From Prinia subflava (lineage: Eukaryota; Chordata; Aves; Passeriformes; Cisticolidae), in assembly GCF_021018805.1 (NCBI RefSeq), contig NC_086251.1, positions 17,651,098 through 17,715,097 on the forward strand: a DNA stretch of 64,000 bases, written 5' to 3'. Of this stretch, positions 27,939 to 61,100 are shown piece after piece. Below the pieces are notes generated by a model that saw only the letters and a list, made by a program, of their open reading frames with translations, had not been told where the DNA came from and did not search any database. How positions within the stretch are numbered: position 1 is the stretch's first letter; each line of letters opens with the position of its first letter. A program made the position numbers and the translations under genes.

Positions 27939-28194
27939 TCAGTTTGATGTTAAGCTGATGGCTCTCTTGATCCGGTTCAGCGCACTCGCCTTGTCATTTT
28001 CTTCATTGTTCTGCAGCTCTCTGGACTGTGGCCTGCTGCACTCAGTGTCTTGACAGCTGCAGCTCTCCACGTAGATGTACTTGTGTGACACGGAGTGCCC
28101 ACCGGGGCATTTCAGAACCACGTGCTTCTCAGTGGTCCTTGTTTCTCTGCAGCAGGAGCAGCTGTGGTCCATAGAATTGGCCTCAGCAGAGTAT
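27939..28194 (-). CDS. MUC2: MUC2 last coding exon: cystine knot second half and stop
   Basis: It encodes YSAEANSMDHSCSCCRETRT, VVLKCPGGHSVSHKYIYVES and CSCQDTEC, then a polar tail ending RIKRAISLTSN and TGA. Human MUC2 has MYSAKAQALDHSCSCCKEEK and CQCQDTVC, also with a basic tail. Acceptor TTAACAG, phase 2 in. All conserved CTCK cysteines appear to be present. Confidence 0.95.
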
Positions 28195-37100: not shown

Positions 37101-40100
37101 CCACAAAAAGCCCATCAACCTCAGACAAATGAGGCTATAAATTCAAGGTTTGAACCAGCTAAATCCTAACACTCAACAGAGTTATTAAAGTAACTGTGGC
37201 ATCAAGGACTCCTCATGAAAGTGAAATATAAAATTCTCCTAAATTCATATGGTATAAAGTTTTAGGTTTCTTGGCATAAAGGACACATGCTTATAGGAAA
37301 ATTAAATAATGGAAATAAGACTAAAACTGTATTATTTATTTAAATGTAGTAGCCATGATATACTTGAGAAACTGACACTACTACCTTCACTCAGCAACTG
37401 GAGATTTCTTTGGTTTAGAGAAAAAAAAAGAGGTCTAAATATTGTAAATTGTCAACAATATGTTGCAACCTAACTTGTAATATTCTCACACAATAATGTA
37501 CAAAAAAACCCCAAACAAACAGTAAAAAGCTACAAAAAGCCCCAAACATGTCTCACTAATTTTGAAACGCAAAAACTGTGACATCACATTTATCAATGGA
37601 ATAAACACATAAGTGCCCTATTATGAAAAGTTAAAAAGATCACACAAGTCAAAGCTACTAATGGTACTTCTAAAAAATGCTTCAGGCCAGCACTTTATTG
37701 TTATGTCTACCTTACATGATCTCCTCCCATTCCATATTGTTTTCTTTTGTTACATTAATGTTAATTATAAATTAACTGATTTTATATCCTTAACCCTTAG
37801 CAATTTAGTCCACACTTTGTATTTAGGAGAGATCTGCAAAGATTTGAGATTAAAAAGACAAGAAGTTGTAGAATTTATCATCCCCACATTCAGAGTAAAA
37901 AAATGCTTTGAAGTAGTCCTTTGAAGTCCTTTGAAGCAGTCCAGTTTTATATTTTGAACTATTACTGAGTCTAAAACACAGAAGAATTTTTTCCCAAACA
38001 TTGGGAATATGAATACAATTATCCTGTTGATGCAGTATTAATATCTGAATCAAGAAATCAATGGTAGCATTCTTTAGTACCTCTACTTGTAGAGTATTTG
38101 GTTGTGCTGTTGTTAGCCTCACTTCCTGAGTCTCATGTCTCAGGATGAGCGTTCGGGGACAGGACACTACATCCCGTGCATCACAGTGGTAGTTATCGAT
38201 GTAGACACCGAAGTTGTCAACCTTCTTATTGATCTCTTCCACAAGGACATATGTGCAATTCCCTTGGTAGCTGTAGTACAATCCATCGAAAGTCATGTAA
38301 TGTGGATCTCCCCAGCCAGTGCAGTAGCCTAAAAAACATACAGCTAAGTTAGGCTCTTGTGGCAACATATAAAATCATATCAGACTACAAGCAAAATCTG
38401 TAGATATGAGAAACATCTCAGTGAACTTGGGGCATTTTCAATTTTATGAAGTGTATATGTCAATGCATGAGCTCATTAGCTAGAAGTCATCAATAAAAAC
38501 CAGGCACTTTCAATGCACAGTTCATCTAACATTAATGACAGACAACTAAGAATAGGATTAACTGTACCACAGATATATCTTTACCAGTAGTCTGAACAAG
38601 TAACATATATCTAGGCTTCTAGCCTATAGATGTCTGCATCTGGACATTTAAATCCTACTTTGGGAGACGAATTTACTCTACTAATACAACAGTTACGCAG
38701 AGAAAATGGCAACTTAAGCAAATCCCTCAATTAGCTAAAAAGAATCAACAGAGCACTCTAAGCAACACCAGAAGACTGTCGCACAGCCTTTCACGATACC
38801 TGTTCCCTGATAAATATTCTTGGTCTTGACAATAGTACTGTTTCCTCAGGAGATTAAATATTGAACAAAATATGTACTTACAATCACACTCCCAGTGCCA
38901 ACAGCATCCATCCTCATCAATGACTGGCACAGGAGACAGTCCATTGGCACACGTTGGTTTCGGAGGCGGATTGCAGATTACTGGAATCACCTGGACAATG
39001 TTGTCTTCTATACATATCACCTTAGTGCAGTTACAGAGCCACCATGATTCACCTTGCTGTGTTTGAAAAGAGACAGGGAGAGGGGAAACGGAGACAAATC
39101 TTAGGAAGCAGTGAGACTGACAACAGTTATGCCTGAATATCTTCTGCAGGTTTCTAAAAAGCCATATATTTATTGACAATTTTTCCCCCACCAGAAATCT
39201 GAAAATAAGATGGAAGTGCATCATTCAGCACTATCTAGGTCTGTAAGATAAACTAGAACAACTGAGAGCTGCAAAGTGAAAAGCATTACTTTCAAAAGCC
39301 AAGCCAGTAAACTGAAATGAGAATCACTTTTTCTAGTTTCAGCTATCTAAAAGTGAGGTGTTTCATCTAATCTCATCACCCTAACACCCTCTCCAAAGAA
39401 CAGTGAAAGACACTGATCAATATGAAAGGCCAATATATGATCAGTTCCCTTCCATGGATGCCTGGAACAGATTAATAGCTGAAGCTACAATGAACACCAA
39501 CTGTTTGGGGAAAAATGTCCAAGGTGATTCTATGCATTGGGATTGCATGAGGTTTTTTTCTATCTTCTTTTTCAGCCATGTATAATTTTTATTCCTGCAG
39601 ATCTACTGAGCAAGTTGGTAGGCATCTAAACTATGAGGAGGCTTTAAAAATGTACAAGACACTAACTTATCTGTGTCAGAGGTGGAGGGTTCAAAAAACA
39701 GAAAAAAAAAAAAAAAAGAACTCTGAGTCAAATTTCACAAGCATTTGAATGCATTGATCTGTTTCACAGTCCTCTCCTGAAACCACTCTGAGAACAAATA
39801 TGACTCATCCCAAACTCACACAAATTCAGCCCTGTGTAATTTTGTTGGGCTGCAATGTAAACACACAAATTACATTTACCCACTTTGGACTTATTCAAAA
39901 GCAGAAATAGAAAAGATAGCTTAGCACCATTTAGCTCTTGGTTTCCTCTTCATCAGAGCTATTCTGCAACAAAAACAAACAGAATGCGATCCAGGTCCTT
40001 ACAGAAAACTTTTTAAAAATTATCCTTGAAGAGCTAATAGCAATATATAAGCTATCAATCCAAATATCATTGGAAGTCCTGCTGATGCCCAAGAAAACTA

Positions 40101-43100
40101 AAGAAATAGAACAGACTGATACTTCCTTTCCTATCCAGTTTATTGCCTGCTCTCCATGTTACTAACAATAAAGCTATGTGTCTAGTCTCCATCCGAAGCA
40201 CAATGAAAGCATGAAATCTACTCACCTCATAAGATTCATTAGGGAAGATAGTACAAGTTTTTTTAGGAGTGGTAGGTATTAGACCTGTAGTTGAACTTGA
40301 GCCATTAACTGGAGGAGTTGCACTGTGTGTAGAACTTCCTATAGTGGTGACTGCAGTTGATGTTGCAGTAGGCCCAGATGAAGTGGTTGAGCCAGGACGA
40401 GGGGTTTTGAAGGTGGTGGAGGTGGTGGTTGCATTGATTGTGACAATACTAGAGGTGGTTCCTAAAGTAGTGGTAAAGCTCTCTGTTGGAGTAGTACCAG
40501 AGGTGGTGGTTGACACAGGGCTGGTTGATGCAGGTGATGTTGTTGGAGTAGTAACAGTTGCAGAGGTTGTCGTTGGGGTACTTATTTCTGTTCCTACTGT
40601 GGTGGTGGAGCGAGTGGACACTGAGGTTGTGGGACCTGAAGTGGTTGTTGATGTTGATGGTGGTGTTCCCGAAGGGCTGCTCGGTCCCGAGGTTGTGGTG
40701 GTGCCAGGGCTGGAAGTGGTGGTAGATGATCCTGTTGGAGGGCTTGGGGTCCTGGTGGTGGTGGTTTCAGGGACAGGTGTTCCTGTTACTGGTGTGGTGC
40801 TGGTGGAACTTGAGGGTGTGGGGCCTGAAGTGGTGATCTTGGTGGTTGATGCTGTTCCAGTGAATGGGGTTGTTGATGTTGATGGTGGTGTTCCTGAAGG
40901 GCTGCTTGGTCCTGAGGTTGTAGTGGTGCCAGGGCTGGAAGTGGTGGTAGATGATCCTGTTGGAGGGCTTGGGGTCCTGGTGGTGGTGGTTTCAGGGACA
41001 GGTGTTCCTGTTACTGGTGTGGTGCTGGTGGAACTTGAGGGTGTGGGGCCTGAAGTGGTGATCTTGGTGGTTGATGCTGTTCCACTGAATGGGGTTGTTG
41101 ATGTTGATGGTGGTGTTCCCGAAGGGCTGCTTGGTCCTGAGGTTGTGGTGGTGCCAGGGCTGGAAGTGGTGGTAGATGATCCTGTTGGAGGGCTTGGGGT
41201 CCTGGTGGTGGTGGTTTCAGGGACAGGTGTTCCTGTTACTGGTGTGGTGGTGGTGGAACTTGAGGGTGTGGGGCCTGAAGTGGTGATCTTGGTGGTTGAT
41301 GCTGTTCCAGTGAATGGGGTTGTTGATGTTGATGGTGGTGTTCCCGAAGGGCTGCTTGGTCCCGAGGTTGTGGTGGTGCCAGGGCTGGAAGTGGTGGTAG
41401 ATGATCCTGTTGGAGGGCTTGGGGTCCTGGTGGTGGTGGTTTCAGGGACAGGTGTTCCTGTTACTGGTGTGGTGCTGGTGGATCTTGAGGGTGTGGGGGC
41501 TGAAGTGGTGATCTTGGTGGTTGATCCTGTTGTAGTGACTTCAGAGGTGGTAGCTGTCACTGGGCTTGTTGATACTGGTGATGTTGACTGTTGACTAGTG
41601 GTGCTGGGAGTAGACACTGTACTTATTACTGTTGTTCTTGTTGTTGGCAGTGGGGTAGCTGAAGGAGTAACTGGAGTGCTTGTGGGCACCTCTGGTTCAG
41701 GTGTCTCTTTAAGATACAGAAAAAACAGTATTTTAAGTAGGGAAATCGCATTTTCTTCCTAATGTCATGTCATTTTCTACTAAGCATATGTAGTTAACAA
41801 ACCTAGTCATAGGGTCTTTAGATAGAAATAAAGCAGAAATTTCTTTATTAATGGTTTTTGCATCACTGAGGGATTATTAGCAAAATCTCCTACATCTTGC
41901 ATAGGAGACATTGATATAAACACTTTATCAACAATCAGTGTCAGAGGGAACATCTTCTGCAGTTTTAAAACTTTATATAGCAGAGAACAGTTCAGCAGTC
42001 CTAGACCCAGGGGAATCCACTGAGTAGATCAGTGAACTCTGGTTAATACTGTAGTGCTGTCATACTATATTCTGTGGAAAGATCATTATTCCCTATGCTG
42101 CTTCATGTGGCACATTCACACCACCATTGATTATGCTCACAGTCATTTGATTTTACAGAAACTGAGCAGTTGCTGGAGCAGTCTGTGTTCCATTTCTAAT
42201 GCCCAAGCCTTTAAGACTACTCACACACAAGCTATTTTGGGATGCTATGAACCCCAAATACACTTTTCTGGTTTTTCATGTGGCCAGTTTTCATTATAGT
42301 TGCTAATGGAGACTCTTTTAAAATAGTTTTTGATTACAATGCTAAAAAGTGTTGATGATGCTCACACGCCAGCCTCAGAGCCATCTATTTGTGCTTTTAT
42401 AGCATGATATAAGTGACACATAGTAGAGAGGGAAGCACTGTGTACATAGTAAGAGTGCAGTAATGATGCTAAAGGAATTAAGATACACTGGTTCTGCTCA
42501 GGCAGCCCACAAGGACAGTCCTTCAATGAAAATTAATTCACATTTAGGTGAGGACAGGCAAACTCCTTTATGTACTTCATGCCCTTTAACAGAGGCAGAT
42601 GAACTGGATCAGTAGGGGCTGTGACATTGCTGCTGATAGGTTAGCTGAGATGTTTTTAAAATATAATCAACTACATTAGTGCAGAGTATAGAAACTAAAG
42701 GACTTTATAGTATAGTACTATACTTTCGTATAGTACTAAAGTATACTAAAGTATATTAAGCTGCCAATAAACCCTGCTTTCTAAAACCAGCAAAGGACAT
42801 GAAACCCTGGGAATTACTTAATGCTCCCGTGACTGGAGGCGTCGGGGTTCTGGTGAAAACATTTTCAGGAACACTGGTGGTTGTGCTCGGAGGGCTGGTG
42901 GTGGTGGTGTGAGGCTCTGGTGGCGAGGGAGTGGTTGTTGACTTTGGTGTGCTTGGTGTGGATGGAGTTGTGCCTGTTAGAAACAGCAGGGACGGAGAAA
43001 ACAAACACAAAGGCATCAGTTAGAAACAGCACAGACAGAGAAAACAGGCACAAAGGCATCAGTGGGACTCAGTGTCAACTGAACAGAAGTTGCACATGAG

Positions 43101-46100
43101 GCAGCTGCCACAGAGCTAGAGAGGTCAGCCTACCCTAGCACCAGCCCTTCCTTTCTGGCCCCAAAAAGTACAATATTTGAAATCTATGCACACAGGGTCA
43201 TGGCCCTTCCCTCTAAGCAAAGAGATGGTACTGGAAGGTGCTTCTCATCAAATCAGAGAGATCTACCAGTAGGTAAGAGATGAGAAGGAGCAATGTTTTT
43301 GATCTTGCTGGAGCTTTCTATCTCTGTGTCATTATCTCGAACACCTTGCTAAATCGTGGGGTAAAAATTGGGATGGGAAGCTGTGATCAGGGAAGGAGGC
43401 ATTCACAGGAATATGTTCCTGCCTGATTGGCATGTGGTTTTCCCAATGTCACTCTGAGAAATGGCTTCCCAGAGTACTAGTGGATCTCATCAGCCAAAGA
43501 CCACTATTCAAAGAAAGTCACAGTCTGCAGAGTGAAACTGTTCCCAAAAGCATATCCATCCTACCTACATCTAGAACAGCTGATAAGCATTAGCACTGAC
43601 AGGGAAAAGGAACAGGGGAGAGGGAAGATCTACACAGTTATGCCAAATCAGTGCCTAAAATGCCAGTACCAAAAAACCAAAGCCATGGCACAATTGCATG
43701 TACGTCCAGTGAATATATTCTGGCCAGCTGAGGGAAGAGGTCCAGAAGCAAAAAAGACAGGATTTCTCATCAGTTCAAGATCTGTGTAAGCTGAGCATCA
43801 GCATGAAACATCTCTGAGTCTTTTTTAAGTGAGGGAAGACCAGACCTTTACCCCAGAACCCCAAAACCTTGTTCCTTTTAAATAGCCAGATGAAAGGCAA
43901 GTTTTAAGCAAAGGCTGTTCCAGGGATGCTCTGCAGTTACACGCACCCCTGATACTACTGAGAGGCCCAATTTGAGGTGCTCATGTACCTTAGGGCAACC
44001 ACAGGAAGGGAACAAACAACAGCACAGGCCAGAGAAGTACCTGGAGTAGGTAGGGTGGTGGTGTATGTTGGTGCTGGTGAGGATGTGCTTGAAGTAGTTG
44101 GGGTGGGTGTTGGTGATCCAACAATAACAGTGGCTGTTGTCGGGGTGCTGGTGGGAGTCTCTGGTGTTGAGGGAGTCGTTGTTGATTTTGGTGTGCTCGG
44201 TGTCTGCGTAGGTGGGACTGTTAGAAACAGCAGGGACAGAGAAAACAGACAAAGGCACAAATGCATGAGTGGGACCCAATGTGAACTGAACAGAAGCTGT
44301 ACATGAGGCCACAGAGCTAGAGAGGTCTGCCCACCCTCAGCACTGCAAAGGTTCCTAGCACCAACCCTTCCTTTCTGGCCCCAGAAAGGAGACTCCTTGA
44401 CATCCATGAAGATATGGTCATGGCCCTCTTTGCCAGGTGAAGAGACTGGGGATGGTGCTAGAAGGTGCTTCTCACCAAATCAGAGAGACCTACCAATAGA
44501 TAAGAGATGAGGAGGAGTAGTTCTTTGGATCTCACTGAGGCTTTTTATCTCTGAGTCATTACCTAGAACACCTCACTAAATCCTGGAGCAAGAGCTGAGA
44601 GTGGAATATGCAGTCCAGGAATGAAGCATGCACTAGAGTAGGTACCTGATAGTCATGGTATTTTCCCAATGTCACCCTGATAAAGGACACCCCAGCATAC
44701 TAGTGGATCTGGTCACCCAAAAGCCACAATTGACAGCACGATGCAGTATGCAGAGTGAAACTTCTCCCAAAAGCATGTTAGGGGAATCCTTTCTCACAAT
44801 ATTTATAACCTCTGAAAACCATTAGCATAGACAAGGCAAAGGAGTAGGAGAGAAAGGGAAGAATGTCTACAAAGCTTTTCCCAAAGACTGTCTAGAATGC
44901 CAGTATCACTAACTAATACTCCATTCCAACTGCACACCATGGATCCAGCGGCTACATTCTGCCCAGCTGAAGAACGAGGTCCAACAGTAGCAAAGCAAGA
45001 TCTCCCGCCAGTTCAGCATCTGTCTAAGCTGTGCACTAGGATGAAAAACCTCCTCAGAGACTGTTGAATGAAAGATGCCAAGGCCTTCTCCTCGTGACCC
45101 CTGAATCCTTCTTTCTTCTGAAACCAGCCAGCCCGAAAGACCAGCTTTGGGCACAAGACATTTCCTGGAATGCCCAGTAGTTAACCCCTCATCCTGAATC
45201 CCATAGAGAGCCTCAAATGGTGGTGCTTATAGACCATCATTACAACCACAGGAAGGCAGCACAGTAGTGCACAAAACATAAAAGTACCTGGAGTAGGTAG
45301 GGTGGTGGTGTATGTTGGTGTTGGTGAGGATGTGCTTGAAGTAGTTGGGGTGGGTGTTGGTGATCCAACAATAACAGTGGCTGTTGTCGGGGTGCTGGTT
45401 GTGGTGGTGGGAGTCTCTGGTGTCGAGGGAGTCGTTGTTGATTTTGGTGTGCTCGGTGTCTGCGTAGGTGGGGCTGTTAGAAACAGCAGGGACAGAGAAA
45501 ACAGACAAAGGCACAAAGCCATGAGTGGGATCCAATGTGAATTGAACAGGCCACAGAGCTGGAGAGGTCAGCCCACCCTCAGCATTGCAAAGGTTCCTAG
45601 CACCAGCCCTTATTTTCTCAGCCAGAAAAAAAAGTCCTTGATATCCATGGACAGAGGTGGTCATGGTATGGGCCTGATAATTTTGGGCCTTAGAGATTTT
45701 AGCCTGCTGGTAGCTGCTAACTCCTCTCCCAAGGGAAAAGTTTCTTAGGAAAGCTTCTTCCCAAAACAATCTTGGCAAAACAACTATCCTTTCCCAAAAC
45801 AATCTTTCTCCAGGTGGCATGTTGCTTTTCTGGTTCTCAGAGAAAAACATTTTGAAACAACATGTTTCTCTAGTTTGACCAGTGGGATTGGGGAGGTGTC
45901 AGTCCTGTTCAACAAACGTGTTAAGTCTGTATCGGAAACCTTATAAAATAAACAATTAAAGTTTTTTTATGCTTTTTGCCCTCTGAAATATTTGGAGTCT
46001 TTCGTCTTTTGTTCATGTTCAATAATGACAGTCATGGCCCTCCTTTCCTATTGAAAAGAGTGAGGCTGGTGCTGGAAGGTGTTTCTCACAAAATCAGAGA

Positions 46101-49100
46101 GGCTTACCAGTAGGGAAGAGATGAGGAGGAGTAATGCTTTGAATCTAGTTGGAGCTTTCTATCTCTGCCTCATTACCTAAACACCTCGCTGATTCATGGA
46201 GTAAAAGGTGAGGGGAATCTGTGGTCCAGGAACAGATCATGGACCAGAATATGTTTCTGCCTGATAGTCATGTGATTTTCCCAATGTCACCCTGATAAAG
46301 TACATCACAGAGTAGTAGTGGATCTTGTCAGCTGAAGATCACAGTTCACTGCAAGAGGTAGTATGTACTCAAAAGCATGGCAGGGGAATCCTTCCTACAT
46401 CTGTAACCACTGACAAGCATCAGCACAGACATGGCCAAGAAGGAGGAGACAGGGGAAAAAGTCTATACAGCCTAAAACAGTGCCTAAAATGTCAGTGCCA
46501 AAACCCAAAGTCACTGTCCAACTGCCCATCATGTATTCCATGACTGCTCAGATGAAGGACACAGTCCAACAGCTGCAAAAGCAATATTTCACATCAGTTC
46601 AGCATCTGTCTTAGCTGGGCAGCAAGATGAGATACCTCCTCAGAGCACTGTTACATCAAGAAAGACAAGACCTTCTTGTCTGTCCCAGGATTCCTGCATC
46701 CTCATCACTTTTGAAACAGCCCAAATGAACTTTGGGCACAACTCATTTCCTGGAAGTCCCAAAAGTTACACACATCCTTGATCCCACACAGCCCCACAAA
46801 TGGATGTACTCACAGACCCTCATTACTCCCACTGCAAGACCAAAAAGGATGAAAGAACCAGAGAATTTTTTGTTGGTTCTGTGGTTAGAGGCCGAGGGGT
46901 TTTTATGCGAATTACTAGCATTGGGAACATACTTTCAGGAGTTGAGATGGTTGTTGTTGATCCAGGAACAGTGGTTGTTGTGCTCGGAGGGCTGGTGGTG
47001 GTGGTGCGAGTCTCTGGTGGTGAGGAAGTGGTTGTCGATTTTGGTGTGCTTGGTGTGGATGGAGTTGTGCCTGTTAGAAACAGCAGGGACAGAGAAAACA
47101 GAGACACAAAGGCATCAGTGGGACTTAATAGGAACTAAACAGAAGCTGCACATGAAGCAGCTGCCGCAGACCTAGAAAGGTCAGCCACACCTAGCACAGC
47201 AAAGATCCCTAGCATGAGCCAGTCCTTTCTGGCCCCAGAAAGCAAACTCCTTGAAATTTGTGCACACACAAAGTCATGGGCCTCCTCTCCTCGCAAAGAG
47301 ACTGGGTGTAGTGCTGGAAGGTGCTTTGTACAAAATCAGAAAGACTTAGCAATAGGTAACAGATGAGAAGGAGCAATGTTTTTGATCTTGCTGGGGCTTC
47401 CTATCTCTGCTTCATTATCTAGTACACCCCACTAAATCCTGGGGTGAGAGCTGAGAGGGGAAGCTGTGATCAGGGAATGAAGCATGCACAGGAATATGTT
47501 CCTGGCTGATTGGCATGTGGTTTTCTGACGTGAGGAGTTACCAGAGTACTAGTGACTCTTGTCAGGCAAAGACCACAGTTCATAGAAAGTCTGCAAAGTG
47601 AAACCAAAACCAAAACCCTGGCAGAGGAATGCTTCCTTCCTACATCTATAATAGCTGAGAAGCATTACTATTGACATGGCAAAGGAGCAGAAGAGAGGGA
47701 AGAAGGTCTACACATCTGTGCCTAAAGACAGCTTGAAATGCAAGTGTCACAAAATCAAGCCTAACTCCATTACAACCCATGTATCTAGTGATGCCACACT
47801 GGCCAGCTGAAAGACAAAGTCCAACAGCAGCAAAAAGCTACTGGGTCCTTGTCCCTTCTGAAACAGACTAAAGGGGCAGCTATGGGGATAGGCTGTTTCA
47901 GGGGCTCTCCAGAAGTTAAACCCATTCATGATGCCATACAAGGTAAAAAATTAGGTGTTGACAGACCCTCAGTACCCTCAAAGGAAAAGAACATATGAGA
48001 CTACAAAACTTAGAAGTACCTGGAGTTGATAGGGTGGTGGTGTATGTTGGTGAGGGGGAGGATGTGCCTGAAGTAGTTGAGGTGGGTGTTGGTGATCCAG
48101 TAACAGTGGTTGTTGTGCTCGGAGAGGTGGTGGTGGTGGTGGTGGTGGTGCTGGGAGTCTCCGGTGACTTGGTTGGCAGTTCTGATGTAGTGGGTGGTAT
48201 GCTTGGTGTGGATGGGGTTGTGCCTGTTAGAAACAGCAGGGACAGAGAAAACAGACAAAAGCACAAAGGCATCAGTGGGACCCAATGTGAACTCAACAGA
48301 AGCTGCACGTGAGGCAGCTGCCACAGAGCTAAAGAGATCAGTCCACCCCTTGCACAGCAAAGGCACCCAGCACCAGCCCTTCCCTTCTGGCCCCAGAAAG
48401 CAGAATCCCTGACATCCATGCACACACACAGGGTGACAGCCCTCCACGCCTTGTGAAGATACTGGGGATAGTGCTGGAAGGTGCGTCTCCCAAAATCAGA
48501 CAGATCTACCAGTAGGGAAGAGAGGAGGAGGAGTAATGCTTTTCATCTACTGGGGGATTTCTATCTCTGCCTCATTACCTGAACACCTCACTAACTCATG
48601 GAGTAAGAGCTGAGATGGGAATCTGTGGTCAGGGAAGGATGTCTGCACAGTACCAAGAGGATCAATATCTCCACAGGACAGGAGGACATAGAGCCCTGTA
48701 TCCTTGCTCCTTCTGAAACAACTAGCCCAAGGGAGGCCTTCGGGCAAAGGCCACTTCAGGAGATACACAGCAAACAGTCCAATCTCAGATCCCACACAGA
48801 GGCACAAATGGAGGGGCTCACACCTTCAATTTCCCACAGCAAGGAAACACACAAGAGCACAGATCAGAGAAGCACCTGGACTTGGTGTGGTGGTGGTATA
48901 TGTTGGCGTGGGCATGGATGTGCTTGAAGTAGTTGAAATGGGTGTTGTTGAGACAGGAGGAGTAGTTGTCGTCTGTGAGGTGCTGCTGCCGCTGGTGGTG
49001 GTGCTGGGTGGCATCGTGGTGGTGGTGGTGGTGGTGGTGGTGGTGGTGGGGGTAGGGGTGGTACTGCTGGAAGTCTCCCCTTCTGTTGGCGTTGGAGCGG

Positions 49101-52100
49101 TTGTTGATATTGGAGGGGTCACACTGCTCGTTGTGGATGAAGCTGTGGAAGCTGTGGTGCTCGTGGTGCTTGGAGATGGAAGACACTCTGGTTTGTTGGG
49201 CGTGCAGCAGACACTGATCTCGTAGTTGAGGCAGACTGGCATTGGTATTATCCCTCCTAGCTGCTGATCTTTATTGTTACAGATGAGCCCTACGTTAACA
49301 TCACATTGCACCTTCTGCCCTAAATCTGCAATGGAAGTGTTAGGGAATTTCTCTGCTCGGCACGAAATATTCTCAACTTTTGCACACTCCCAGGAGGGGT
49401 TGTTCTTCCAGATGTTCTCAAAGGTTTCGTAGTCACCACTGTTCCTGTCAGAACCATCTGGGTAGGTCACATCGATCCAGTCCGTCCAGACGCACTCACA
49501 AGCTGGGAGGCACCAACAAAACGGACAATTAGAAACAGACAGGACAGAGACAACAATGCAGGGCACCAGCTCACGCACAGGTGGTGCTCTGCGCATCCCC
49601 TGCACTCAGCAGTGCCCATCAGGATGCTGCTGCACTCAGCCAACACTGGCCACAAGAAAGCTCAGCGGTGTGGCCAGGCCTCCCCTCCTTGGCCCCACAA
49701 ACCGCTCCAGGCCCAAATCAGGACACGGGCACTGGTGAGTTATGTGTGTGCCCCCACAGCTGGCTCACATTGCTCTATATAGACTCTCGTGTGCAAAAAA
49801 CACTCACATAAGATGCACACATGAGGCAGAGCAGGACTAAGCAGAGACTCCTGCCACTCTCTCAGCTTCCTGGGCCATGCAAGCCACCACACCCTCCCAC
49901 GGAGAAACCAACCACTGGAAAGGCACTCATCCACTGGGAAAGCAGGCACAGCACATACACTGCTGACAAAGCCTCAGCTGCCTCCCAGCAGCACAGATCG
50001 CTGGAGACAAGCACCAACAGGAACGCTGGGAGAATGCAGCTGCCTAGAGCTTGTGTCTGTCAGAGGGGGCAATCTGCACTCTAAATCCATTCCCCAAACT
50101 CTACCATCAAAAGCCACGGAAGCTTAATACAGCCCAAACAGCTGCTAAGTAACAGCAATAGCCACACAGACAAATCAGAAGAGAAAGGGAAGAAGGTCTG
50201 CACAGCTGTGCCCAAACAGAGCCACGGCCACAAACTTTAGCCTCACTCCAACTGCACATCTTGGGTCCAGTGTCTATATTCTGGACAGCTGAAGCACATG
50301 GCCCTATAAGCAGCAAAAGCAATATTCCCATCACTTCAGTAGCTGTCTAAACTGGGCACAAGCACAAAATACCTCCTTGGACCACTGTTGAGTCAGCATG
50401 GGCAAGGATCTCTGTATTCTTGCTCCTTTTAACAGCCAGCCCAAAGACCATTTTGGGCACAGGACTTTTCCTGGGATGCCCAGAAGTTACACCCATCCCT
50501 GATCCCATCCAGATCTACAAATGGAGGGGCTCAGGGAACTTCACTACTCCCACAGCAAGGCCAGAAATGACAACAGGGCCAGGGAATTATTTGTTGGTAC
50601 TGTAGTCCGATGCAGAGGGCTTTCAGCAGGAATTATTTGATTTTGGAACATACGTTCAGGAGTTGGCACAATCGGTGGTCGAGTTGTTGTTGTCGTAGGT
50701 CCGGTGGTGGTGGTGGGAGTGGTGGTGGTGGTGGGAGTGGTGGTGGGAGGAGTGGTGGGAGTGGTGGTGGTGGTGGTGGGAGTGGTGGTGGGAGGAGTGG
50801 TGGGAGTGGTGGTGGTGGTGGTGGGAGTGGTGGTGGGAGGAGTGGTGGGAGTGGTGGTCGGAGTGGTGGTGGGAGTGGTGGTCGGAGGGGTGGTGGGAGT
50901 GGTGGTGGTGGTAGGAGTGGTGGTGGGAGTGGTGGTGGGAGTCTCCGGTGATGTGGAAGTGGTTGGCGATTCCGTTGTACGGGATGTTGTGCTTGGAGTT
51001 GTGCTTGTTGTGCCTGTTAGAAACAGCAGGGACAGAGACAACAGACAAAGGCACAAATGCATGAGTGGGACCCAATGTGAACTGAAGTTGTGCACAAGGC
51101 AGCTGCCCCATACCTAGAGGGGCAGCCTGTCCTTAGCACAACACAGATCCCTATCACCAGCCTCCCCTTTCTGGCCCCAGAATGCTATATTCTTGACTTC
51201 CATGCACAGAGATGGTCATGTCCCTCCTTTCCTTGGAAGAGACTGGGAATGGTTCTGGAAAATGCTTCTCACAAAATCAGAAAGTCCAAGTTAGGGATGA
51301 GGAGCAGTAATGCTTTGGATTTGGCTGGGGCATTCTATCTCTGCCTCAATACCTTAACACCTCACTAAATCCTGGGTCAAGAGCAGAGAGGGGAATGTGT
51401 GGTTGGAGAACGAAGCACACACAGGAATATATTCCTGCCTCATTGTCATAAGAGTTCTACTGATTCAATGCCAGCTCTCTGAAGGGTTTCCCAGAAGATT
51501 AGTGAATCTCATCAGCCAAAGACCACACTTCAGAGGAAGTGACAGTCTGCAGAGTTAAACTGTTCCCTAAAGTCTGTCACAAAAATCCTTGCTTCCTGCA
51601 TCTATAAACATTGGCATCCACTAACACTGACATTGCAAAGGAGAAGACAGTGAAGGAAGTCTGCAAAATTTTTCCCAGAAAGCACCTGAAATTACAGTGC
51701 CACAAGAGTGATTCCCACTGCAATGTCACATCTTAAGTCCAGTGACTACATTATTGACAATCGAAGGACAATGTACAACAAGAATATAAGATTTCCCATC
51801 AATTTAGCATCTCTCTAAGCATGAAATACCTTCTTAGATGTTTGTTGAGTAATGGAAGCTAAGAGCTTCTCACAAGGACCCCTGAATTGTCATCACTTCT
51901 GAAACAGCAAGCCCAAGTTCCAGCTTTGGGCAAAGGACATTTCATGGGATGCACAGCAGTTACACCCATCCCCAATTCCATACTGAGGCACAAATGGAGG
52001 TGCTAACAGATCTTCATTACTCCCAAAGAAAGGGGACACAAGATCAGACAAGACAGAAGTACCTGGAGCTGGCAGGGTGGTTGTATATTCTGTTATGGGT

Positions 52101-55100
52101 GTGGATGTGCTTGAAGAAGTTGAGGAGGTTGTTGACGAGCCAGTAACAGTCGGTGTTGTGTTAGGGGTGCTGAAGCTGGTGGTGGTGCTGGGGGGCATTG
52201 TGGTGCTGGCAGTGCTGGAGAGAGTTCCAGGTCCTGTTGGTGGGGCAGTAGTAGGCATTTCTGGTGTGCTTGGTCTCTTTGTAGGTGGGGCTGTTAGAAA
52301 CAGCAGGGACAGAGAAAACAGGCAAAGGCACAAAGCCATGAGTGGGACCCAACAGGAACTCAATGGAAGCTGCACATGAGGCAGCTGCCACAGAGCTAGA
52401 GAGGTCAGCCCACCCTTAGCACAGCAAAGGTTTCCAGAACTAGCCCTTCCTTTCTGTCCCCAGAAAGAAGACTCCTTGACATCCATGCACAGAGAGGGTC
52501 ATGGCCCTCCTCTCCTGGTGAAGAGATTAGGGATGGTACTGGAATGTGCTTCTCCCAAAATCAGAGAGACCTACCAATAGGTAAGAGATGAGGAGGAGCA
52601 ATGTTTTGGATCTAGCTGGAGCTTTCTATCTCTGCCTCATTACTTGAACACCTCACTAATTCATGGAATAGGGGATATGAGTGGAAGCTGGAGTCAGGGA
52701 AGAAAGCATGCCTAGGAATACGTTCCTGCCTGATTGGCATGTGGTTCCCCCATATTTCAATGTCAGCCAGATGCAGGGCTTCCCTGGGCACTAGTGGATC
52801 TCACCAGGTGAAGTGTCAGCCAAAGACCAAAAGTTCACAGCAATGGGCAGTGTCCAGAGTGAAACTGTTCCCTCAGAGGCTGGCAAGAGAATCCTGCCTT
52901 CTTACATGTCTAACAGCTGACAACCACTAACACTGAGAGGGCAGAGGAGAAGGAGAAAGGGCTGAGCCCAAACACAGCTTGAAATGCCACTGCTACAAGA
53001 CCAAGTCCCACTGCAATTGCACTCCACGTGTCCAGCAACTACATTCTGGCCAGCTGAAGGACATGGTCCAACAGCTGCAAAAGCAATATAACCCATAGGT
53101 TCAGTGTCAGCCTAAGATGGGCAATAGCATGAAATACCTCCTTGGAGCACTGTTGAATCAGGATAGGCAAGGCCTTCCCCCAAGAACGCCTAAATCCTTG
53201 TTTCTTATGAAATAGCCAGCCCAAGGGCCAGATTTGGCCACAGATTTTCCTGGGATGCCCAGGAGTTACACCATCCCTGATCCCATCTACAGACACATAT
53301 GGAGCTGTTCATGGACCTTCACTACTCCCATAGCAACGGCAGAAATGACAACAGAACCAGACAATTTTTTGTCAGTTCTGTTCCTGGGGGCAGAGGGGTT
53401 TTGGTGGGAACTATTGCTTTCGGAAACATACTTTCAGGAGTTGAGATGGTTGTTGTTGATCCAGGAACAGTGGTTGTTGTGCTTGGAGGGCTGGTGGTGG
53501 TGGTGCGAGTCTCTGGTGGTGAGGGAATGGTTGTCGATTTTGGTGTGCTCGGTGTGGATGGAGTTGTGCCTGTTAGAAACAGCAGGGACAGAGGAAACAG
53601 ACAAAGGCACAAAGGCATCAGTGGGACTCAATGTTAACTGAAAAGGAGCTGCATATGAGGCAGCTGCCACAGAGCTAGAGAGGCCAGCCCACCTTAGCAC
53701 AGCAAAAGTCCCAGCACCAGCCCTTCCTTTCTGGCCCCAGAAAAAAGACTGTGAAATCCATGCACAGACAGGGTCATGTCCCTCTTTGCCTAGTGAAGAT
53801 ACTGGGGATAGTGCTGGAAGGAGCTTCTCACCAAATCAGAGAAACCTACCAACAGGTAAGAGATGAGGAGGAGCAATACTTTTGATCTGGCTAGGACTTT
53901 CTATCTCTGCCTCATTACATAGAACCCCTGACTAAATCCTGTGGTTAGAGCTGAGACGGGAAGCTCTGGTGAGGCAAGGAAGCATGCCCAGGAATGAGAG
54001 CACTAACAGGATGGGACAGGAGGACATAGTCTCAAGTTGTGCCAGGGGAGGTTTAAGTTGGATATTAGGAGGAATTTCTCCAGAAAACAAATTATTAGAC
54101 ACTGCAATGGACCGCCCAAGGAGGTGGCAGAGCCACAGTGTTTCTTGGCCTTTAAGACAAAAGTGGAAGTGACAGTTAGTGCCATGATCTCATTGACATA
54201 GTGGTGTTGGACATGATGATCTCAGAGATCTTTTCCAACCTAACTGATTCTGTGAATATATTCCTGCCTGATTGTCATGTGATATCCCTGTCGTGCAATG
54301 AAGGCCCGATGAACGACTTCCCTGGGCACTAGTGAATCTCATCAAAGGCCACAGATCACAGCAAGAGGCAGTCTGCAGAGAGAAATTGTTCCCAAAAGCC
54401 TGGCTGGGGAATCCTTCCTTCCAACATCTGTTACAACATCTGTTAGCACTGACAGGACAAGGGAAAAGGCGAAAGGAAAAAAACTTGGCACAGCTGTGTC
54501 CAAACAGAGCCTGATATATGCCACTGCCACTAGACCAAGTCCCACTCCAATTGAACTCCACAGCTCCAGTGATGCCATTCTGGCCAACAGAAGGACGAGG
54601 TCCAAAAACAGCAAAAGCAATATTTCTCATCAGTTCAGCATCTTTCTAAGCTGGGCACCAGTGTGAAATGACTACTTGGAACCCTGTTGAGTCAGGGAAG
54701 CCAAGACCTTCTCCCCATGACCCCTGAATTCTCGCTTCTTATGAAACAACCAGCCCAAAACACCAGATTTGGAACCGGCCATTTCCTAGAATACCTGGGA
54801 ATTATGCCCATCCCTGATTCCATACAGAGGCAAAAAGAGGTGCTTACAGACCTTCACTACTCTAACAGCAGGGGAACATGTAAGAGCACAAAATGTAGAA
54901 GTACCTGGAGTTGATAGGGTGGTGGTGTACGTTGGTGTGGGTGTGGATGTGCTTGGAGTAGTGGAAATGGGTGTTGATGGTCCAGTAACAGTTGTCGTGC
55001 TGGGGGTGCCCATGGTGGTGGTGGAGCTGGAGGGGATCGTGGTGCTGGCAGTGCTGGTGGGAGTCTCTGGTGTCGAGGGAGTGGTTGATGGTTCTGGTGT

Positions 55101-58100
55101 AGTGGATGCTGTGCTTGGTGTCTGCGTAGGTGGGGCTGTTAGAAACAGCAGGGACAGAGAAAACAGACAAAGGCACAAAGGCATCAGTGGGACCCAATGT
55201 GAACTCAACAGAAGCTGCACGTGAGGCAGCTGCCACAGAGCTAAAGAGATCAGTCCACCCCTTGCACAGCAAAGGTACCCAGCACCAGCCCTTCCCTTCT
55301 GGCCCCAGAAAGCAGAATCCCTGACATCCATGCACACACACAGGGTGACAGCCCTCCACGCCTTGTGAAGATACTGGGGATAGTGCTGGAAGGTGCGTCT
55401 CCCAAAATCAGACAGATCTACCAGTAGGGAAGAGAGGAGGAGGAGTAATGCTTTTCATCTACTGGGGGATTTCTATCTCTGCCTCATTACCTGAACACCT
55501 CACTAACTCATGGAGTAAGAGCTGAGATGGGAATCTGTGGTCAGGGAAGGATGTCTGCACAGTACCAAGAGGATCAATATCTCCACAGGACAGGAGGACA
55601 TAGAGCCCTGTATCCTTGCTCCTTCTGAAACAACTAGCCCAAGGGAGGCCTTCGGGCAAAGGCCACTTCAGGAGATACACAGCAAACAGTCCAATCTCAG
55701 ATCCCACACAGAGGCACAAATGGAGGGGCTCACACCTTCAATTTCCCACAGCAAGGAAACACACAAGAGCACAGATCAGAGAAGCACCTGGACTTGGTGT
55801 GGTGGTGGTATATGTTGGCGTGGGCATGGATGTGCTTGAAGTAGTTGAAATGGGTGTTGTTGAGACAGGAGGAGTAGTTGTCGTCTGTGAGGTGCTGCTG
55901 CTGCTGGTGGTGGTGCTGGGTGGCATCGTGGTGGTGGTGGTGGTGGTGGTGGTGGTGGGGGTAGGGGTGGTACTGCTGGAAGTCTCCCCTTCTGTTGGCG
56001 TTGGAGCGGTTGTTGATATTGGAGGGGTCACACTGCTCGTTGTGGATGAAGCTGTGGAAGCTGTGGTGCTCGTGGTGCTTGGAGATGGAAGACACTCTGG
56101 TTTGTTGGGCGTGCAGCAGACACTGATCTCGTAGTTGAGGCAGACTGGCATTGGTATTATCCCTCCTAGCTGCTGATCTTTATTGTTACAGATGAGCCCT
56201 ACGTTAACATCACATTGCACCTTCTGCCCTAAATCTGCAATGGAAGTGTTAGGGAATTTCTCTGCTCGGCACGAAATATTCTCAACTTTTGCACACTCCC
56301 AGGAGGGGTTGTTCTTCCAGATGTTCTCAAAGGTTTCGTAGTCACCACTGTTCCTGTCAGAACCATCTGGGTAGGTCACATCAATCCAGTCCGTCCAGAC
56401 GCACTCACAAGCTGGGAGGCACCAACAAAACGGACAATTAGAAACAGACAGGACAGAGACAACAATGCAGGGCACCAGCTCACGCACAGGTGGTGCTCTG
56501 CGCATCCCCTGCACTCAGCAGTGCCCATCAGGATGCTGCTGCACTCAGCCAACACTGGCCACAAGAAAGCTCAGCGGTGTGGCCAGGCCTCCCCTCCTTG
56601 GCCCCACAAACCGCTCCAGGCCCAAATCAGGACACGGGCACTGGTGAGTTATGTGTGTGCCCCCACAGCTGGCTCACATTGCTCTATATAGACTCTCGTG
56701 TGCAAAAAACACTCACATAAGATGCACACATGAGGCAGAGCAGGACTAAGCAGAGACTCCTGCCACTCTCTCAGCTTCCTGGGCCATGCAAGCCACCACA
56801 CCCTCCCACGGAGAAACCAACCACTGGAAAGGCACTCATCCACTGGGAAAGCAGGCACAGCACATACACTGCTGACAAAGCCTCAGCTGCCTCCCAGCAG
56901 CACAGATCGCTGGAGACAAGCACCAACAGGAACGCTGGGAGAATGCAGCTGCCTAGAGCTTGTGTCTGTCAGAGGGGGCAATCTGCACTCTAAATCCATT
57001 CCCCAAACTCTACCATCAAAAGCCACGGAAGCTTAATACAGCCCAAACAGCTGCTAAGTAACAGCAATAGCCACACAGACAAATCAGAAGAGAAAGGGAA
57101 GAAGGTCTGCACAGCTGTGCCCAAACAGAGCCACGGCCACAAACTTTAGCCTCACTCCAACTGCACATCTTGGGTCCAGTGTCTATATTCTGGACAGCTG
57201 AAGCACATGGCCCTATAAGCAGCAAAAGCAATATTCCCATCACTTCAGTAGCTGTCTAAACTGGGCACAAGCACAAAATACCTCCTTGGACCACTGTTGA
57301 GTCAGCATGGGCAAGGATCTCTATATTCTTGCTCCTTTTAACAGCCAGCCCAAAGACCATTTTGGGCACAGGACTTTTCCTGGGATGCCCAGAAGTTACA
57401 CCCATCCCTGATCCCATCCAGATCTACAAATAGAGGGGCTCAGGGAACTTCACTACTCCCACAGCAAGGCCAGAAATGACAACAGGGCCAGGGAATTATT
57501 TGTTGGTACTGTAGTCAGATGCAGAGGGCTTTCAGCAGGAATTATTTGATTTTGGAACATACATTCAGGAGTTGGCACAATCGGTGGTCGAGTTGTTGTC
57601 GTCGTAGGTCCGGTGGTGGTGGTAGGAGTGGTGGTGGTGGTGGTGGGAGTGGTGGTGGGAGGAGTGGTGGGAGTGGTGGTGGGAGTGGTGGTGGGAGTGG
57701 TGGTGGTGGTGGTGGTCGGAGTGGTGGTAGGAGTGGTGGTCGGAGTGGTGGTGGGAGTGGTGGTGGGAGTGGTGGTGGGAGTGGTGGTCGGAGTGGTGGT
57801 GGTGGTGGTAGGAGTGGTGGTAGGAGTGGTGGTGGGAGTGGTGGTGGGAGTCTCCGGTGATGTGGAAGTGGTTGGCGATTCCGTTGTACGGGATGTTGTG
57901 CTTGGAGTTGTGCTTGTTGTGCCTGTTAGAAACAGCAGGGACAGAGACAACAGACAAAGGCACAAATGCATGAGTGGGACCCAATGTGAACTGAACCGTT
58001 GAGGCAGCTCATCTATTCACAGTTCAACTGAACTGTGCATGAAGCAGCTGCCCGATACCTAAAAGGGTCAGCCCATCCTGAGCACAAAGGTCCCTAGCAC

Positions 58101-61100
58101 CAGCCATTCCTTTCTGGCCTCAGAGTGAAGACTCCTTGACATACATTCACAGAAAGGGTGATGGCCCTCCCCTCCTAACTATGAGACAGGAGATATTGCT
58201 GGAAGGTGTTTCTCACCAAATCAGAGGCCTACCAGTACAGAAGCAATGAGACGGAATAATGCTTTTAATTTGGCTGGGGCTTTCTATCTCCACCTCATTT
58301 TCTGAACACCTCACAAAGTCCTGGAGTAACAGTAATTCCTCGTATCTGCAACCCCATGGAGACACACTAAAGGAGACACTAAGGCACCTTCATTTCTCCC
58401 ACAGCAAAGGAACATATCAGAGAACAGTCCAGAGAAAGTACCTGGAGTAGGTAGGGTGGTGGTGTATGTTGGTGCTGGTGAGGATGTGCTTGAAGTAGTT
58501 GGGGTGGGTGTTGGTGATCCAACAATAACAGTGGCTGTTGTCGGGGTGCTGGTGGGAGTCTCTCGTGTTGAGGGAGTCGTCGATTTTGGTGTGCTTGGTG
58601 TGGGTGGAGGTGCTAGAAACAGCAGGGACAGAGAAAACAGACAAAGGCACAAATGCATGAGTGGGACCCAATGTGAACTGAACAGAGGCTGTGCATGAGG
58701 CAGCTGCCACATACCTAGAGAGGTCAGCCCACCCTTAGCACAGCAAAGGTCCCTAGCACCAGCCTCCTCTTTCTGACCCCAGAAAGAAGACTCCTTGACA
58801 TCCCTGCAAAGAGATGGTCATGGGCCCTCCTTTCCTAGTGAAAAGATTAGGTATGGTGCTAGAAAGTACTTCTCACAAATTCAGAAAGACCATGTCAGCC
58901 TGGAGAAGGAAGCCTGCACAGCCCCACCCAGAAAATGCCTCCAGCAACAGGAGTTTGAACCATGGCCTACTCTTTTCTCACACAGCAGGTCCTTCTGGGA
59001 ATATTGTCTCCAGCAGACACTTGAAAGTCAAACCTTCCTAAGGAAGACTTCCATGCAGATCAATGTTTTCTATGATTGTGACCTGCCTTTAGTAGCCAAT
59101 AGCTCTATTTCTCCAAAGGCGAACTAAGATCACAGAGTATTTTTCTGTTAAATACCTGTAGATGTTGAAGTTACTGGAGTGGGGACTAATAGTGTATACT
59201 CACTTGTTGTGGAATGGACGGGCTTGGGCGTGGTGGTAATTTCTGTTGAAGTCCTGGTTGTAGTGGTGCTGGGTATTGTTGTCTTGGTGGTGGTTGAAGT
59301 TGGAGTTGGTGTAAATCCGGGCTCACAAGGAATTTCTTGCCACTCACAACAGTTTACTCTGATTTCATAATTATAGCAAAGCGGCCACATAGTTACATCT
59401 TGCTCATCATTTTTACAGATTAGCCCATATTTAACATCACACTCTACTTTCTGACCAAGTTCTTCTAAGGTTGCATCAGGTTGATCCTTAGCCCTGCATT
59501 CAATTTTTTCAGGAGCTGTACATATTTTGTATCCATGTTTTCTTATTTCATCATATGTTTCATAGTCACCACTACCTTCATCAGGTTTACTAACATCAAA
59601 CCATTCAGTCCAATCACAGATTAGTCCAAAGCATGGAGCTGCAAAAAAGGACAGAAATTTCAGGCTTTACAGCGAACATCCTAAGATCCATTTTTTATTT
59701 TCTTCCACTAAGGACTAGAGGACTGCATTGCAATTTGTCATCTTACCAAACAAAAGAGTTGTAAAATTGGTTCGGTATTACCAGGTCTTTAAACTGAAAG
59801 CTTTGCATCAAAATAAAATCACCAAACGAAAGCCTTTAAAGGTCCTTCTTCTCTCTATACTAATGGCACTTTTGAAATTATAAAACAAAATTTTTGTTTA
59901 AAATATATTTTTCTGTATTGACTATCTTTAATTTACTCTTCCTTTAAATATTCCTTTGACATTTTTAACAACCTTGTTTTGTATTTATAACTTACTTGTA
60001 GTTTCTGGACGGCTTGTAGTGGAAACTGAAATAGAACAACAAGAGATTATCATTTCAAAAGAAATATAATAGTATTTTTTTTTCTGACACTTCTAACATT
60101 ATTTCTACTATTGCATTAGGATATTGAAAAGCTAACATTTTTTTCAGAAATAGGAAGGCACACTGTACATATATACTTACAGTTTCTTTCATGAGAAATA
60201 AATCAACTCAAAATGCTAAAAGACTTTCTTAGTGTGGTGTGATAATACAGTCCATAAATATTGCTCTGTCTTTGTCAACTATAATCCCATATAATTGTAC
60301 ATTCTACATTTAACAGAAAATTTAATATATTTTCCTTAAAGAAAGCAATTTTTAGATCACATCTGTGTTCATTATTTACCGGTGGTGGTAGTGGTGGTGA
60401 GAGTACTGGAAGGGAAGGAGGTTGAAGTTGTTGTAGGTGAAGATGTTGGACAAGGATAGATTTCACCAGGAACTACGGAACCATTTTCTGCACAAATGTA
60501 TGTTATACATATTTCGCCATCCTGTACTTGTGCCACAGTAGAACCCACTTCATAGCTTGTTCCATTGATGACACAAGGACACCCTGGAAGAAAGAGCTTT
60601 ACTGTGCAATTTTTCTACTACCATGTAAGAGGCAGAGGAAAAACACTTAAGGACAAGAGAGCATTTACATGAGTCATGCCTGTTTTTCAGAGCTGTACCT
60701 AGAGCTTAGATCTACTATATTGTGCTCATTTATCTTTACATTTAAAGCAATATTAGAACATATTTAATCAAGTCCAGAATAAAATGCCTGGTGGTACAGA
60801 CTTTGAAACCAGGTTATAAATGTGCTGAGAGAAATAATAATTGCAATTTACTATCTGACACTTTTCCATTAATAACTACATGTTCAGGAAGTGCGAACTT
60901 GTAGTGAAATCCATTAGTTTGGATATGGGATATGGGGAGAAAGACTGAAGGGGCATGACAAAAAGGTTGAACTAGAAGTACTAACAGCAAGGTTCAACAA
61001 AAGTGCTGCCACAATTTCTTTAGTAGCAACTTTCACTAGCACTGGAAAGAATTATTCTAGATCAATGCTAAGTTTTTTGTAGAGTCAGACAGAGCAGTTC

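Follow-up and report, generated by a model that had tools for sequence, protein, structure and literature searches.

The length of a mucin and the spacing of its CysD domains are thought to set the properties of mucus, and the MUC2 gene of the bird Prinia subflava raises the question of how a gel-forming mucin whose glycosylated domain is divided among many exons builds that domain and keeps its parts alike. The window analysed here is a 64,000-nucleotide stretch of the Prinia genome (assembly GCF_021018805.1, contig NC_086251.1, positions 17,651,098 to 17,715,097 of the forward strand), and all coordinates below refer to it. MUC2 lies on the minus strand, running from the end of the D3 domain (63972) to the cystine knot (27945), with most of the gene inside the window. 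Its middle part, which encodes the regions rich in proline, threonine and serine (PTS) and the CysD domains located between them, consists of exon+intron units with a mean length of 1.3 kb that are copies of one another. We hypothesize that this central PTS/CysD region is an array of phase 1-1 units in which exons of the same type are kept alike by gene conversion, with an occasional longer exchange, and we regard this as the probable explanation of the patterns described below.

The array comprises 13 exons at 42818-58612, of which 11 contain PTS sequence only and two combine a CysD domain with PTS sequence. Labelled by type and position in kb, and all on the minus strand, they are, from 5' to 3': V58.5 (58442..58612, 171 bp), P57.7 (57563..57922, 360 bp, with 12-bp internal repeats), the CysD + PTS exon C56 (55788..56411, 624 bp), V55.0 (54905..55135, 231 bp), G53.5 (53432..53569, 138 bp), V52.1 (52063..52290, 228 bp), P50.8 (50654..51013, 360 bp, also with 12-bp internal repeats), the CysD + PTS exon C49 (48876..49502, 627 bp), V48.2 (48020..48223, 204 bp), G47.0 (46933..47070, 138 bp), V45.4 (45288..45473, 186 bp), V44.1 (44041..44217, 177 bp) and G42.9 (42818..42973, 156 bp if the donor AA/GTAATT is used). 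A first CysD + PTS exon (59156..59638, minus strand, 483 bp, phase 1-1, Pfam Mucin2_WxxW) forms the 5' border just outside the array. PF13330 scored above its cut-off in both exons tested; C49 gave an E value of 5.7e-23, and for C56 the domain was shown on this near-identical copy. All 14 exons (the 13 and the first CysD exon) have an open frame, a length divisible by three and phase 1-1, and the 11 PTS-only exons total 2349 bp (783 codons) with a Ser+Thr content of 49-71%.

An initial annotation of this DNA had described about 13 exons some 1.25-1.3 kb apart as the carriers of the PTS region. The count and the average hold, acceptor-to-acceptor spacing having a mean of 1.30 kb, yet the range is 0.69-1.60 kb, with seven of the 12 spacings at 1.15-1.28 kb; and while the 13 exons do carry PTS sequence, they do not carry all of it, as a further, single PTS exon of 1481 bp (40226..41706, minus strand, borders set by inspection) contains four 225-bp repeats that are 97% alike. 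Because this large repeat exon, which follows the mammal-like mode, lies 3' of the multi-exon array, both modes of mucin-domain building occur in one gene. The annotation had also expected diagonals at multiples of about 1.25 kb in a self-comparison, and BLAST of 42.8-58.9 kb against itself does contain offsets of about 1.2-1.3 kb, with 6.9 kb as the dominant one, among 101 off-diagonal matches at E<=1e-5, the longest of them spanning 2407 bp. Dinucleotide shuffles of this sequence, 20 in all, gave no match in 19 cases and a single match of 44 bp in one; three other 16.1-kb stretches (two of them overlapping; jointly 1-40.1 kb of the window) gave no self-BLAST match.

That units of exon plus intron were copied, sharing an acceptor tract and further intron text, was likewise borne out. 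The 24-nt acceptor tract CTCTGTCCCTGCTGTTTCTAACAG is identical in nine of the 11 PTS-only exons; it has one change in G42.9 and is truncated to ...TTTCTAG in V58.5, where the acceptor was reformed as TTTCTAG after a small deletion. Averaged across all types, the last 60 nt of the introns are 90% alike, against 71% further upstream. Each of the 13 introns between the 14 exons shares sequence with others of the set, and for seven of them the alignment spans the entire intron, with pairwise identities of 69-77% (mean 73%, 21 pairs). Homology from end to end was considered for all 13 and rejected: it holds for the seven, and the others share parts only. Three of the 13 are without a middle part, the match of the first intron of the set is confined to its 3' part, and the introns before C56 and C49 match the others in their 5' part alone, their 3' parts being 41-47% identical, no better than chance. 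Two of the whole-length introns, 53570-54904 and 45474-46932, contain insertions of about 230 and 350 bp. At 56412-56470 and 49503-49560 (minus strand), upstream of the C56 and C49 acceptors, there is a degenerate PTS acceptor tract (TCTCTGTCCTGTCTGTTTCTAATTG) without an AG, a match judged by eye within intron ends that are otherwise unlike the rest.

The introns that follow G and P exons (four of four) start about 100 alignment columns earlier than those that follow V- or CysD-type exons, which indicates that the exon types share their acceptor and differ in the position of their donor. V and G/P exons resemble variants of a single exon that has a common acceptor and donors at different places, always in phase 1. 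The exons C56 and C49 both finish with a V-type tail, and they may have arisen by fusion of a CysD exon with a V unit.

The central evidence comes from a comparison of exons with introns. The interleaving noted in the initial annotation, of type V at 58.5, 45.4 and 44.1 kb and type G at 53.5, 47.0 and 42.9 kb, is real: V58.5, V45.4 and V44.1 are 95-98% alike, G53.5 and G47.0 are 97% alike, and G42.9 is 90-92% identical to these two, against 55-83% for exons of different types. Synonymous divergence (substitutions per synonymous site, dS), computed for 12 exon pairs, is 0.019-0.125 among V58.5, V45.4 and V44.1 and 0.051 for G53.5/G47.0, well below the intron distances, whereas four V pairs that include one or two exons from outside the trio give 0.38-0.46; these values are rough, since such short exons offer few synonymous sites (40-53 in a same-type pair), which we count among the points against our reading, while the values for G42.9 pairs (0.28-0.36) include a poorly aligned tail and are not relied on.

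If V58.5/V45.4/V44.1 and G53.5/G47.0 had arisen by duplication of blocks, their flanking introns should group likewise, and mostly they do not. Trees of the 3' and 5' intron parts, each with 11 of the 13 introns (the 3' tree also without the last 136 columns and without the introns before CysD exons), are both nearly star-like and poorly resolved over most of their branches, the introns having diverged with little sign of grouping. One of the eight inner branches is starred in the 3' tree, and it joins the recent pair V55.0/V48.2; two of seven are starred in the 5' tree, for the recent pair P57.7/P50.8 and for the introns following the neighbouring exons G47.0 and V45.4 (98/97). Constraining G53.5 and G47.0 to group is rejected for the 5' parts by the approximately unbiased test (p-AU 0.004), and constraining V58.5, V45.4 and V44.1 to group is borderline rejected for the 3' parts (p-AU 0.048). 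In a runs test on two overlapping sets of six of the 11 units (30 pairs), the strongest tracts, those of V58.5/V45.4/V44.1 and of G53.5/G47.0, cover the exons and at most about 225 columns of the preceding intron (z 12-20; global P 0.0005, the lowest value attainable with 2000 permutations). We infer that short gene-conversion tracts pass between exons of the same type together with some of the preceding intron.

A longer exchange is visible as well. The segment 48240..51043 (minus strand), which holds a P exon and a CysD exon, each with the intron that follows it, and whose two edges both lie at acceptor regions, has a near-identical partner at 55150..57950 (minus strand, approximate limits), at an offset of about 6.9 kb. 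Outside repeat tracts, 99-100 of every 100 bases are identical between the two. At the 3' edge, in the columns from 48249, at the V48.2 acceptor, only 75 of 94 bases match, and at the 5' edge similarity decays within 100 bases upstream of the P50.8 exon. The CysD stretches of C56 and C49 are identical and their exon lengths differ by 3 bp, while the P57.7 and P50.8 exons are 94% alike, with their 12-bp repeats differently arranged. This points to one recent exchange of 2.8 kb that moved a P exon and a CysD exon together. P57.7 and P50.8 are equal in length despite the different arrangement of their internal repeats.

The history that we propose would begin with an old step, in which whole exon+intron units were copied into a tandem array. 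Later, short conversion tracts would have kept exons of the same type alike, with some of the intron upstream of them, and now and then a longer exchange would have moved the two-exon module of P and CysD. With one phase common to all of them, the reading frame is kept whenever a unit is added, lost, swapped or skipped; gain, loss and skipping of units would let the glycosylated domain vary in length, in CysD number and in the spacing of its CysD domains. A stronger version can be offered only tentatively, as a possibility that we rather doubt: conversion would proceed largely exon by exon, with the identical acceptor tracts as exchange junctions, while the introns drift, and the result would be a mucin that swaps cassettes, with an order and a CysD number specific to each lineage and with the frame kept throughout. 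The proposal that the acceptor tract acts as a junction comes from one block (two edges), and since nearly every unit has much the same tract, block edges at different points within it would be indistinguishable.

Deposited bird sequences allow the array to be followed in relatives. A search for MUC2 models returned 83 protein matches, from birds plus some others, the bird models being automatic, and in these models both the copy numbers and the sequences of the units vary by lineage. CysD domains, counted by a simple pattern, number from 1 to 10 among the 37 of the 83 models that were tabulated (which include two non-bird proteins and isoforms within species), with several copies in raptors and others. 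The songbird models that were inspected contain V/G/P-like units, and those of manakin, chicken and grouse contain repeated units, with 19 similar unit starts in a Manacus model. In the model of Rhea pennata (P0191) there is one long TTTPSTTV-type repeat, and recognisable V or G units were not found. In 14 oscine records we compared the order of the 3' units that precede the large exon. The Serinus and Molothrus models reproduce V-G-V-V-G exactly; those of Passerculus, Zonotrichia, Ammospiza and Pyrgilauda add a single G-type unit to it; Agelaius has it with some units merged, Corvus has a shortened form, and in Melospiza melodia part of it is misread; five of the 14 are without a usable 3' segment. 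Isoform names of deposited MUC2 models reach X50 in Manacus and Tympanuchus, and so many automatically predicted isoforms in species that bear the array would fit variable splicing.

The same records bear on how the copies evolve. When exons at the V58.5 and V45.4 slots were compared across the window and six species, 10 of 14 comparisons placed the two slots of one species nearer to each other than to any counterpart from elsewhere. In each of nine other species that yielded at least two second-type CysD copies, those copies show 98-100% identity and are closer to one another than to any foreign copy, in a comparison that left out eight of 18 rows without a pattern match (Passerculus, Aquila, Buteo, Morphnus, Accipiter, Larus, Gallus and Tympanuchus). 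The word TATVIVG, common to three V exons of the window, has no occurrence in 223 bird and other records. Likeness within species, together with a word of the window that is absent from these records, is as concerted evolution predicts.

Several observations weigh against our reading. The splicing of the array exons is predicted from splice sites, reading frame and the deposited models of relatives, and seven of the 14 oscine records (P0158, P0163, P0164, P0165, P0166, P0167 and P0171) hold His/Asn-rich stretches, for example LNYFKHI, that look like V-type exons read in the wrong frame. Four of the 14 cross-species slot comparisons do not favour the exon's own paralogue, each species contributing two non-independent comparisons at slots chosen after the sequences had been seen. 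In the runs test, global P was below 0.05 in 17 of the 30 pairs, and ten of these 17 tracts lie in introns only, so that either exchange is not confined to exons or constraint is uneven, two cases that the test cannot separate. Among the intron trees, a V45.4+V44.1 constraint is not rejected in the 5' parts (p-AU 0.095); the three G units sit on one branch of the 3' tree with negligible support (55/9.9), within which G47.0 and G42.9 group at 94/92; and the joining of the introns that follow G47.0 and V45.4 fits duplication.

These weak intron groups belong to the case for the explanation that the initial annotation had offered for the interleaved types, namely several rounds of multi-unit duplication or unequal crossing-over. 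Other observations fit it too: a near-identical two-exon block stands twice in the array, 6.9 kb apart; the order V-P-CysD-V-G is present twice; and in a Corvus model three CysD modules follow one another at a period of exactly 259 residues, with a fourth besides. We nevertheless think it unlikely. The alignment and tree of unit introns, recommended at the outset as a check, left most intron branches without resolution and gave a rejection of G53.5+G47.0 for the 5' parts; the dS of same-type exons is well below the intron distances; and beyond the 2.8-kb block, the G exons excepted, neither five-exon group is clearly nearer to the other than to the remaining units. One recent block exchange exists, and repeated rounds of multi-unit duplication are not well supported. 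A tandem duplication of five exons was also considered as the source of the 6.9-kb offset and rejected, as near-identity spans 2.8 kb only and the flanks show no clear excess of similarity over other units.

Exchange might also be dispensed with altogether, if strong selection acted on the sequence of same-type exons, including their synonymous sites (for instance on splicing enhancers). A constraint on splicing is indeed likely, given that the acceptor region is conserved across types, and uneven constraint is what the runs test cannot tell from exchange. The synonymous sites of V exons can change, however, as the four other V pairs demonstrate, and TATVIVG, common to three Prinia V exons, is found in none of the 223 records; we consider selection without exchange improbable.

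We also consider it very improbable that, among the 13 exons, many represent copies that have died or go unused. G42.9 is without the usual donor, V58.5 has its truncated acceptor tract, and most of the array is missing from a Corvus model of 2217 residues; yet 14 of 14 frames are open and symmetric, the replacement splice sites of G42.9 and V58.5 keep the phase, longer deposited models of relatives hold the same units in the same order, and the cDNA-based chicken protein shows units at exon-length spacing. G42.9 was dropped as a candidate dead exon: the usual G-type donor GT is lost, and an in-phase, phase-1 donor 45 bases further on (the AA/GTAATT given above) keeps the predicted exon open. 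Finally, that the near-identical 2.8-kb pair is an assembly artefact, as identity so high in a repetitive gene could suggest, is hardly credible, because the repeat tracts differ between the blocks, which speaks against a simple assembly duplicate, the flanks and the CysD exon lengths differ too, and models of nine other species, although themselves assembly-based, hold at least two near-identical CysD copies.

Concerted evolution within a PTS/CysD array, our preferred reading, can be set beside several systems already described, for which we draw on excerpts of the published texts. In chicken, a MUC2 cDNA study (Jiang et al. 2013; PMC3549977) reported 64 exons and four CysD motifs, placed the PTS repeats in exons 32-45, and remarked on repeated elements in the DNA around those exons; as in Prinia, the PTS repeats are split over many exons. 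Units of the deposited chicken protein recur mostly every 80 or 85 residues, which agrees with exon lengths of about 240 and 255 bp from the published table after our own adjustment of the splice points (PMC3549977), and the units in the stretch inspected differ from those of Prinia in being nearly identical and in their sequences. A genealogy of the units and a comparison of exons with introns were not found in the excerpted parts of that study (PMC3549977). Chicken Muc13 (Lang et al. 2006; PMC1552070) has one repeat unit per mucin-domain exon, as Prinia MUC2 does, but is a membrane mucin with 20-residue units, and CysD domains are not described in the excerpt; zebrafish Muc13 is mentioned there, as unpublished, to have its mucin domain in several exons (PMC1552070). 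Human MUC2 holds the corresponding region, two PTS and two CysD domains with 98 tandem 69-nt repeats, in the single exon 30 of 8,793 bp (PMC6269512), as against many exons in Prinia. The initial annotation's view of the array as a different way for a mucin to lengthen its glycosylated domain is apt relative to the human gene (PMC6269512), and had already been reported for chicken MUC2 (PMC3549977) and Muc13 (PMC1552070). A 2026 human study, as excerpted, states that all canonical mucins carry their repeats in a large exon (PMC13345508), which makes birds an exception worth citing.

The closest parallel in organization is SmPoMuc of Schistosoma, in which an exon with its flanking introns forms tandem genomic repeats of about 1 kb that evolve in concert, much as exon+intron units are repeated in Prinia MUC2 (PMC2576457). 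There, however, the introns are more homogenised than the exons, and intron homogenisation is likewise seen in spider silk genes (PMC2576457). Prinia MUC2 shows the reverse, same-type exons being homogenised while introns differ: exons of the V trio and of G53.5/G47.0 are 95-98% alike, against 69-77% for the seven full-length introns. Concerted evolution of avian MUC2 was not found in print, in open-licence full texts and with most subscription journals outside that scope. The multi-exon layout is known from chicken MUC2, and the new part is the pattern of homogenised exons and diverged introns.

Because the units of bird MUC2 are separate, phase-matched exons with introns between them, duplication, conversion and the gain of modules can be told apart: the introns can be used to time the units, like a clock, and the exons preserve traces of the exchanges that came later. 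With so many birds sequenced, the way in which a mucin domain turns over becomes testable, and the array may help to explain why automatic models of bird MUC2 look broken in the PTS region.

The gene itself is MUC2, its VWD4 and C-terminal domains being closest in sequence to MUC2. Both ends are colinear with the MUC2 model of Corvus moneduloides (tblastn, 59-97% identity per exon), including the C-terminal exons downstream of the array, from VWD4 to the cystine knot (27945..39098, minus strand). Against PDB sequences, the VWD4 exon scores 148 bits with human MUC2, 144 with FCGBP and 68 with MUC5B, the exon at the end of D3 scores 74 bits with MUC2 and 44 with MUC5B, and one C-terminal exon has MUC2 chains as its sole matches at E<=1, in a comparison set that may be without the C-termini of MUC5AC and MUC5B. 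C49 shows 94% identity, along 69% of the exon, to a MUC2 fragment of Cisticola juncidis. Among the first 53 matches listed in that search (the best 120 of 144), 52 bear genus names that we take to be passerine. The first CysD exon finds its best scores with MUC5B/MUC5AC CysD chains (99 bits), followed by MUC2 (82), and is 70% identical to a turkey MUC2 model. Its acceptor and donor words are nearly those of chicken MUC2 exon 30 in the 2013 table, of which it is likely the counterpart.

Beyond the 3' end of MUC2, on the same minus strand at about 1-12.7 kb, there seems to be a second gel-forming mucin, possibly avian ovomucin or MUC5AC. The one exon tested there, near 11.6 kb, is mucin/VWF-like, with MUC5B and VWF as its best PDB matches.

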